From Verrucomicrobiota bacterium (GTDB taxonomy: Bacteria; Verrucomicrobiota; Verrucomicrobiia; Chthoniobacterales; UBA10450), in contig QHOK01000106.1 of the NCBI GenBank assembly GCA_003218755.1, positions 1-40,481 of the forward strand: 40,481 nucleotides of DNA. The letters run 5' to 3'. The position numbers were made by a program, and so were the translations under genes. Positions 24,357 to 32,749 of the stretch are shown piece by piece; position 1 is the stretch's first letter; each line of letters begins with the position of its first letter. The notes beneath the pieces are model-generated. The model was not told where the DNA came from and made no database searches. It was given only the letters and a program-made list of their open reading frames with translations.

Positions 24357-24363
24357 GGGCAAT

Positions 24364-24441
24364 AGTGATCAGTGACAAAGTGACGAGTGACGAGAGGAAT
24401 TCGCGAGGCGAGCCTACTTGTCAGTCATCACTCGTCACTTC
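24364..24441. repeat. inverted array of degenerate 7-nt units (AGTGACG type)
   Basis: The left arm holds AGTGATC, AGTGACA, A-AGTGACG, AGTGACG (24364-24392). The right arm holds the inverted unit in 7-nt register: TCAGTCA, TCACTCG, TCACTTC (24421-24441). The arms include a perfect 13-bp inverted repeat (24378-24390 with 24428-24440). It fills the spacer between the methyltransferase start and the cupin gene, and overlaps the last codons of the latter. Confidence 0.65.
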
Positions 24442-31600: not shown

Positions 31601-31701
31601 AAAATACAAGACTAATCGAGAGCTTTTCTCTTTCTTACCGACGTGACGTTTTACTGCTGCCGAGCGTTTGAAAAATCTGGCGCGGGCGCTAGCTTTGCCG
31701 C

Positions 31702-31725
31702 TTCAACGGTTTAACTGTTCAACTG
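31702..31725. repeat. short array of 8-nt units (TTCAACGG type)
   Basis: Three octads in register, TTCAACGG, TTTAACTG, TTCAACTG, lie 5 nt before the ATG of the small basic protein gene. They are the inverse of the GTTAAAGC-type units found just after that gene. Confidence 0.55.
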
Positions 31726-31730
31726 TATTT

Positions 31731-31886
31731 ATGTCGCAGCATCGCAGTTTAAAAGGGGCGAGCACCATCGCCGCCAGGCGGAATGTGCTAAAACGCTTCG
31801 AGCGCGTCGAGCTTCTGAAGAAGCGCGGCCAATGGAAAAAAGATAGTAAAGTCATTGGCCTGCCCAAAACGAAGCCGGACGTTTAG
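31731..31886 (+). CDS. small basic protein (Chlamydiae/Verrucomicrobia type, TIGR04137-like)
   Basis: The 51-residue, strongly basic protein reads MSQHRSLKGASTIAARRNVL and continues KRFERVELLKKRGQWKKD to GLPKTKP. From memory this is the conserved 'small basic protein' of Chlamydiae and Verrucomicrobia, thought to be associated with the ribosome; it is one of the best lineage markers in the window. The frame is open 21 codons upstream, but the ATG at 31731 matches the family start. The gene is flanked on both sides by octad repeats. Confidence 0.9.
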   Translation: MSQHRSLKGASTIAARRNVLKRFERVELLKKRGQWKKDSKVIGLPKTKPDV

Positions 31887-31890
31887 GCGC

Positions 31891-31953
31891 GTTAAAGCGT
31901 TAAACGGTTGCAGTGTTGAAGCGGGGTCCGGTTTAACCCTTTAACCCTTCAAC
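31891..31953. repeat. inverted array of 8-nt units (GTTAAAGC type)
   Basis: Four octads in exact register, GTTAAAGC, GTTAAACG, GTTGCAGT, GTTGAAGC (31891-31922), are followed by a 7-nt centre (GGGGTCC) and three inverted octads, GGTTTAAC, CCTTTAAC, CCTTCAAC (31930-31953). The arms can pair in several registers (for example GTTGAAG with CTTCAAC). The array starts 4 nt after the small basic protein stop codon and ends 7 nt before the pseudouridine synthase ATG, so it would lie in a shared transcript. Confidence 0.7.
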
Positions 31954-31960
31954 GATCCTG

Positions 31961-32749
31961 ATGCGCTTGAACCGCTTCCTCGCCGGTGCCGGCGTCGCAT
32001 CGCGGCGACATTGTGATGAATTGATCGCGGCGGGTCGCGTCACCATCAACGGTAAAATCTGCACCAACTTCAGCGCACAGCCGGGCGCACACGACCACGT
32101 GAAAGTCGACGGCAAACTTGTTCGCGCCGCTCCCACCCTTACCATCATGTTGCACAAGCCCGCGGGATTTGTTTCAACCCGAAAAGATCCGCACGCGCGC
32201 AACACTGTCTTTAATCTGCTTCCACAAAAATTTTCTCGCCTCTTCAACATCGGACGTCTGGACGCGCAAACTGAAGGTCTGCTGCTTCTGACAAATGATG
32301 GCGACCTGGCGCAGCGGCTTACCCACCCACGTTACAAGATCGACAAAGAATATGAGGTGACACTGGATCGGCCGTGGGACCCTGCGCTCGCACCGAAATT
32401 GCTGCGCGGAATTTTTCTCGACGGCCAGCGCGCCAAAATCGCGCGACTCCACTCTGTCTCACCCACGCATTTGCGCGTTGTGCTACGACAGGGAATCAAT
32501 CGGCAGATTCGCCGCATGTTCGAAGCTGCTGGGTACCGCGTTAAACATCTTGTCCGAGTTCGGTTCGGAAATCTTCGGCTTGCCGATTTGCGGCGCGGGC
32601 ATTGGCGGCCATTGACAAAACGCGAGGTGACAAGCTTGCGTTTGCGAGCTTACAGCGATGTTGTAGCGCCGCGCGCTGACCGCGGCAGGCACAAACCTAG
32701 CCGGCTCAGTAAGCCGAGAGTCAACGGCCTCGGCCACAATCTGACGTGA
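31961..32749 (+). CDS. rRNA pseudouridine synthase, RsuA/RluB family
   Basis: The 262-residue protein has an N-terminal S4 RNA-binding domain (MRLNRFLAGAGVASRRHCDEL, then GRVTINGK) and a pseudouridine synthase domain: LHKPAGFVSTRKDPHARNTV, the catalytic aspartate in NIGRLDAQTEGLLLLTNDGD, LTHPRYKIDKEYEV, and VVLRQGINRQIRRMFEAAGY. It isomerises uridine in rRNA. RluB-type (23S) is more likely than RsuA from the LHKPAGFVST motif, but I cannot separate them surely. Its TGA overlaps the GTG start of the following SDR gene by 4 nt. Confidence 0.93.
   Translation: MRLNRFLAGAGVASRRHCDELIAAGRVTINGKICTNFSAQPGAHDHVKVDGKLVRAAPTLTIMLHKPAGFVSTRKDPHARNTVFNLLPQKFSRLFNIGRLDAQTEGLLLLTNDGDLAQRLTHPRYKIDKEYEVTLDRPWDPALAPKLLRGIFLDGQRAKIARLHSVSPTHLRVVLRQGINRQIRRMFEAAGYRVKHLVRVRFGNLRLADLRRGHWRPLTKREVTSLRLRAYSDVVAPRADRGRHKPSRLSKPRVNGLGHNLT

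Follow-up and report, generated by a model that had tools for sequence, protein, structure and literature searches.

The question raised by this locus is why a gene for a small basic protein in a Verrucomicrobiota bacterium should be bracketed by mirrored blocks of tandem octads. The locus lies on contig QHOK01000106.1 (GenBank assembly GCA_003218755.1), of which positions 1 to 40,481 of the forward strand were analyzed; this whole stretch of 40,481 nucleotides is referred to as the window. The host genome is a Ca. Udaeobacter-like Chthoniobacterales MAG with an assembly of 2.63 Mb. Comparisons across the window, the assembly and related genomes suggest that the mirrored blocks are a poorly understood gene-border signal, which probably acts in mRNA.

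Octad arrays at the small basic protein locus

Three octads before the gene and a facing array of four plus three octads after it, as first described from the bare sequence, were confirmed, and all three array pieces were recovered by Tandem Repeats Finder. The features of the locus, with a second facing array elsewhere in the window, are as follows.

31668..31695, + strand: candidate promoter of sigma-70 type for the small basic protein gene (TTGAAA, 16 nt, TAGCTT), predicted from sequence
31702..31725, + strand: upstream array, three TTYAACNN octads in sense orientation (units TTCAACGG TTTAACTG TTCAACTG)
31731..31886, + strand: small basic protein gene, 51 aa, TIGR04137 (Chlam_Ver_rRNA; NCBIfam E 6.6e-27, 93.1 bits, cut-off 50)
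31891..31922, + strand: left arm, four GTTRAANN octads just past the stop codon (units GTTAAAGC GTTAAACG GTTGCAGT GTTGAAGC; the third, GTTGCAGT, is imperfect)
31932..31953, + strand: right arm, three TTYAACNN octads (units TTTAACCC TTTAACCC TTCAAC)
31961..32749, + strand: RsuA/RluB/RluF-type pseudouridine synthase gene (TIGR00093, E 5.4e-46, above cut-off; scores fall under the cut-offs of the RluF, RluB and RsuA equivalogs)
24357..24434, - strand: second facing array, AGTGACN-type heptads, between two minus-strand genes (fold z -3.81; from sequence and gene calls)

The left and right arms (4+3 units, facing, with 9 bases between them) occupy the gap between the small gene and the pseudouridine synthase gene. 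A spacing of 7 nt separates the right arm from the ATG at 31961, close to the synthase start as had been claimed, and the last core of the upstream array likewise lies 7 nt before the ATG at 31731. TTYAACNN in three copies, with up to one mismatch, was matched 4 times in the window and 0 times in 100 dinucleotide shuffles, and GTTRAANNGTTRAA was matched 5 times against 0. Same-orientation cores spaced 5-9 nt apart occurred in the window only at 8-nt steps and only inside the octad arrays, and the 8-nt periodicity is far above chance.

In nearly all congeners a TTGAAAAA box (TTGAAA type) was found 49-92 nt upstream of the orthologous small-gene start, and a TAATGT-like -10 usually came after it. 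The upstream array begins approximately 7 nt past the predicted -10 and, since it lies downstream of this conserved promoter box, is probably transcribed; the predicted transcription start would fall at the first octad, and the array would form most of the small-gene leader.

Distribution of the arrays

The first-pass annotation proposed a class of facing short-unit arrays, and the class proved to be genome-wide, with further arrays found throughout the assembly: GTTNAANN in three copies was present at 35 sites and GTTRAANN in three copies at 31 sites, against 0 for the reversed pattern in each case. Octad arrays were present in every congener scanned (named relatives carry the labels Candidatus Udaeobacter, Spartobacteria and Chthoniobacterales). 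An order-level scan covered two other genera of the family, of which one (G049) had them, and 21 genomes from the order's other families, of which none did. In a phylum-wide sample they were present in 16 of 289 genomes including the host (15 of the 288 others), with G141 (172+127), G250 (152+118) and G190 (104+92) array-rich, and two further genera of the host's family in that sample carried no octad arrays. The distribution within the phylum is patchy. Remote families share the facing design and the GTTGAA core around unrelated interiors; in G141, for example, facing arrays of (GTTGAAAG)3 followed by (CTTTCAAC)3 lie approximately 50-120 bp apart with unrelated interiors. G050, G070 and G221, from other genera of the host's family, have no octad array and should be useful for dating gain or loss.

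Position and polarity relative to genes

Position and polarity were measured in 95 distinct array gaps from six congeneric genomes, with gene starts assigned by a simple codon-usage caller written for this analysis, so that individual distances may be off. The gaps were codirectional in 61 cases, divergent in 29 and convergent in 5, which did not differ significantly from background gaps (81, 31 and 14; n=126). On the sense strand, arrays no more than 30 nt from a start codon were TTYAACNN-type in 40 cases and GTTRAA-type in 6 (p 3e-7), whereas arrays near a stop codon only were GTTRAA-type in 19 and TTYAAC-type in 2 (p 2e-4). Where both arms had at least 2 units, 18 gaps had facing arms and 1 had arms pointing apart; at the same threshold of at least 2 units, single-orientation gaps formed the majority (76 of 95).

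Start-proximal TTYAACNN arrays mostly lay 4-14 nt ahead of the start codon, with a median core-to-ATG spacing of 12 nt and a commonest spacing of 7 nt; at glnA the spacing was 6-8 nt in 10 of 12 species. The complementary GTTRAANN arrays lay a few nt past stop codons. Genes next to arrays have no evident common function. Shine-Dalgarno-like motifs were near background genome-wide (10% versus 7% in the control) and preceded 1 of 41 array-led genes. The octad array is not a general initiation signal, because the majority of host genes have none, and the five convergent gaps, which hold no start codon, also count against reading it as a start signal.

Conservation of the core and of unit number

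Among 27 gapless ortholog arrays, differences amounted to 1-7% at core positions, 21% at R and 30-33% at NN, figures that are biased in that the loci were found by motif. The glnB-glnA gap was compared in 12 species after being located through glnB rather than through the motif, although its type-A alleles are defined by octad presence, which slightly favors core conservation. In the glnA start-proximal arm the pairwise difference was 0% at TT and AA, 6% at C and 23% at Y, against 63% and 36% at the two N positions; the stop-proximal arm was less conserved. The ortholog closest to the downstream element of the window (L069, isolate AV71) also has 4+3 units and the same flanks, and differs at R and NN bases. 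Unit number varies between relatives, as an exact 8-nt indel between L174 and L231 (~91% identical) is a whole-unit change. The possibility that the TRA inside GTTRAA supplies fail-safe stop codons in all frames was rejected: R becomes C or T, and no fixed core base of the left arm varies more than A5 (26%), which lies within TRA.

Alternative unit families and whole-gap replacement

The suggestion of three sites in 40 kb, two of them heptad arrays, stands for at least one heptad array, at about 24357-24434, which follows the same start/stop polarity as the octad arrays. Across approximately 30 congeners, the rluB-type gap of the window carries facing arms of GTTRAANN or ATCGTTRA octads in some alleles and GTGANNN heptads, GTTGAGA heptads or a GTCATTCTGAGCG-type hairpin in others, and is reduced to 28 bp in L044. 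The glnB-glnA gap has at least three alleles with facing arms of different unit families. Past the stop, G over C exceeded its value ahead of the start in 22 of 25 rluB-gap alleles and in 26 of 26 glnBA-gap alleles, counts that are not independent given that the alleles are phylogenetically related; the same was true of just 35 of 64 ordinary codirectional gaps. Unrelated 7- and 8-nt unit families thus keep one design, facing, G-rich after the stop and C-rich before the start, and the proposed class extends beyond octads.

Whole gaps are also exchanged. Nine syntenic segments were compared between G016 and G043 (~95% identical), and 36 of 42 orthologous gaps were homologous; the remaining 6 were non-homologous or largely replaced, one of them (L269/C245 11303) being still homologous along 45% of its length. 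Coding substitutions beside swapped gaps reached 9.1% at 0-60 nt versus 4.0% at 60-200 nt (p 3e-6), and 4.4% beside unswapped gaps. At glnBA, the swapped gap has 59% identity (octads in one genome, heptads in the other) between glnB at 98.8% and glnA at 94.9% identity, with the glnB end at ~99% and the glnA start at ~98% in G043 versus G016. An assembly error at glnBA is unlikely because each allele recurs in other species. These patterns may be read as import of short tracts that end just inside the flanking genes, comparable to the horizontal regulatory transfer described in PMC5890482.

Folding and pairing of the arms

As RNA, the downstream element of the window folded like its shuffles (z -0.93), and the L069 ortholog element folded well (z -4.7). 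Mean fold z was -3.9 for 17 facing octad gaps, -2.5 for glnBA octad alleles, -6.0 and -4.9 for heptad alleles, and -0.94 to -1.68 for intergenic regions versus -0.09 for coding controls. At variable positions, agreement between the two arms of one locus did not exceed that between arms taken from different loci (p 0.11, 0.90). The initial proposal that the small gene could be looped by base pairing between its flanking arrays was accordingly not supported, given the absent covariation and the weak fold in the window. Pairing of arms is possible, but was not demonstrated as a conserved property. No Rfam family scored near its gathering threshold at the arrays.

Proposed mechanism and rival explanations

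The reading we put forward, tentatively and at somewhat less than even likelihood, is an mRNA-level gene-border element built of tandem degenerate octads and spread by short-tract recombination. The start-proximal TTYAACNN arm, rich in pyrimidines, would act within the leader of the mRNA; its most likely role would be that of a landing site where the ribosome or a protein binds so that initiation can proceed without a Shine-Dalgarno sequence. The stop-proximal GTTRAANN arm, its complement, may partly fold onto the start-proximal arm and so damp initiation or shield the 3' end; this folding step is the weak one, because the arms do not covary and the window element folds like its shuffles. Whole intergenic alleles would be exchanged between lineages by recombination tracts ending just inside the flanking genes. 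At the window locus, the upstream array would make up most of the small-gene leader and the facing pair would set the small gene apart from the pseudouridine synthase gene. Beyond the recurrence, polarity, spacing, core conservation and gap exchange demonstrated above, an effect on translation, a bound factor and a part for the stop-proximal arm are what we infer here.

That the arrays are functionless, built by slippage, mirrored by template switching and grown up to the start codon in gaps that no Shine-Dalgarno sequence constrains, has a real if minor chance of being correct: unit indels are exactly 8 nt, unit families are numerous, the Shine-Dalgarno signal is nearly absent, and some arms mirror each other in register (glnBA type B, fold z ~-6). 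Against it stand the invariance of TT-AAC around free NN across 12 species at glnA and the strict mRNA polarity; in addition, remote families show the same facing order and GTTGAA core, and octad arms mismatch each other at variable positions. It is unlikely that the arms are paired sites for a regulator that bends or otherwise binds DNA (IHF/HU-like) and that they join the gap ends in DNA, as proposed for the paired octanucleotides of Geobacter metallireducens (PMC2700814). Besides that precedent, several features suit this explanation: the core is conserved and recurs every 8 nt while NN is free, opposite-strand pairs lie at varying distances, and 29 of the 95 gaps are divergent. Polarity, however, tracks mRNA (40:6 at starts, 19:2 at stops), most gaps have a single orientation, and unrelated 7- and 8-nt units occupy the same gaps, for which a single binding specificity is insufficient.

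An intercistronic RNA hairpin, acting as a REP- or terminator-like mRNA stabilizer, seems distinctly improbable. Intergenic folds do beat coding controls, the facing octad gaps fold well and the heptad alleles very well; divergent gaps, which hold no 3' end, are nevertheless not depleted (29 of 95 versus 31 of 126), the window element folds weakly, there is no U-tract, and arms of one locus do not covary. An intrinsic terminator or 3'-end element was rejected: no T-run was seen at the window arrays, and divergent gaps are as frequent among array gaps as in the background. Least probable by far are the ends of MITE-like mobile elements with the arms as terminal inverted repeats. Facing arms around unrelated interiors, patchy phylogeny and presence or absence of the gap content (the short L044 gap) recall such elements, whereas interiors are not conserved within one genome, the arms hug gene boundaries, exchanges include flanking coding sequence, and neither target duplication nor transposase was seen; the candidate was rejected on the unrelated interiors. 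A broader version of the preferred mRNA-level reading, which we regard as speculative and slightly less likely than the DNA-binding explanation, would make facing arrays a general, largely sequence-independent border code, in which any 7- or 8-nt unit, with a pyrimidine-rich copy at the start and a complementary copy at the stop, would serve Shine-Dalgarno-free initiation, arise or be transferred repeatedly in several phyla, and move between species as whole-gap cassettes.

Comparison with known systems

For Geobacter metallireducens, the repeat sections of the 2009 genome paper (PMC2700814) list 24, 21 and 8 pairs of tandem octa- and heptanucleotide arrays, which lie on opposite strands and are separated by varying distances. 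Their units are GTTGCTYN x4, TCTCCGTSY x3 and MTYCTGA x5 for classes 1-3, classes 1 and 2 being paired on opposite strands as "predicted global regulator binding sites"; those sections ascribe them to unidentified global regulators or IHF/HU, with no test there, and report a different conserved sequence in the proBA gap of a sister species. The arrays here resemble them in having 3-4 tandem octads per site and opposite-strand pairs (4+3 in the window; 18 facing versus 1), but differ in consensus (GTTRAANN rather than GTTGCTYN or TCTCCGTSY) and in phylum, and the start/stop polarity demonstrated here is not mentioned in the passages on the Geobacter arrays.

TAACTGA heptad direct repeats are known from marine Beggiatoaceae, Cyanobacteria and Bacteroidetes (MacGregor 2015, PMC4679880), where they are direct only (one inverted case of 170) and phylogenetically patchy. 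Like them, the arrays here are sense-oriented a few nt before the start (40:6, commonest 7 nt) of Shine-Dalgarno-poor genes of unrelated function, with patchy phylogeny and unit-number indels. Unlike them, the unit is the octad TTYAACNN rather than a heptad of fixed sequence, and facing arms, which TAACTGA arrays lack after the stop, occur in the window and in other gaps.

Switched intergenic regions detected by Piggy (PMC5890482) share the non-homologous gap alleles between orthologous genes (here 6 of 42 for G016 and G043); unlike those regions, the two alternative alleles here often both have facing short-unit arrays, and the exchanged tract can be seen to stop no more than ~60 nt into coding sequence. 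GTAG/CGTC REPs, TIRs and RAYTs (PMC3733652) are likewise intergenic repeats with dyad symmetry that occur in Verrucomicrobia, but the arrays here are tandem octads with a variable interior, and no GTAG- or CGTC-tagged 20-40 bp palindrome was seen at the window arrays. The claim of an undescribed class therefore fails for the kind of array, paired and short-unit, which is known but unexplained (PMC4679880 and the Geobacter sections of PMC2700814), and holds for consensus, start/stop polarity and demonstrated whole-gap swapping, in which the arrays here differ from these precedents.

Significance

A sense-strand array at near-fixed spacing from the start, in a Shine-Dalgarno-poor host, is a concrete candidate for guiding or regulating initiation, and whole-gap swaps at near-identical loci show that regulatory DNA turns over quickly in uncultured lineages. 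In soil, relatives of Ca. Udaeobacter rank among the most abundant bacteria. The arrays also connect two isolated reports that have no tested explanation, the paired octanucleotides of Geobacter and the TAACTGA repeats of Beggiatoaceae.

Additional repeat families

GAATGAC / GTCATTC forms a second genome-wide facing heptad family (L119:3559-3777, L117:4586-4873 and the glnBA type B alleles of L233, L238, L241, L248, L251 and L254). The same design with a longer unit was seen in the divergent gap L122:17670-17929, which has facing 10-nt units of CACAGATTTA / AATCTGTGTT type. Near-perfect direct AGTCAGA-type heptads lie directly past the stop of a second glnB-like gene in L261 (G046:C107). Also dispersed is the hairpin repeat GTCATTCTGAGCGAAGCGAAGAATCTCT ... 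AGAGATGTTTCGCTTCGCTCAACATGACA, which is often located between facing octad arms (L002, L008, L017, L024, L154, L219), and L269:3076-3168 in G016 belongs to a dispersed repeat family of ~92 bp with dyad symmetry, which matches both strands at the same place and has dozens of matches in G043.
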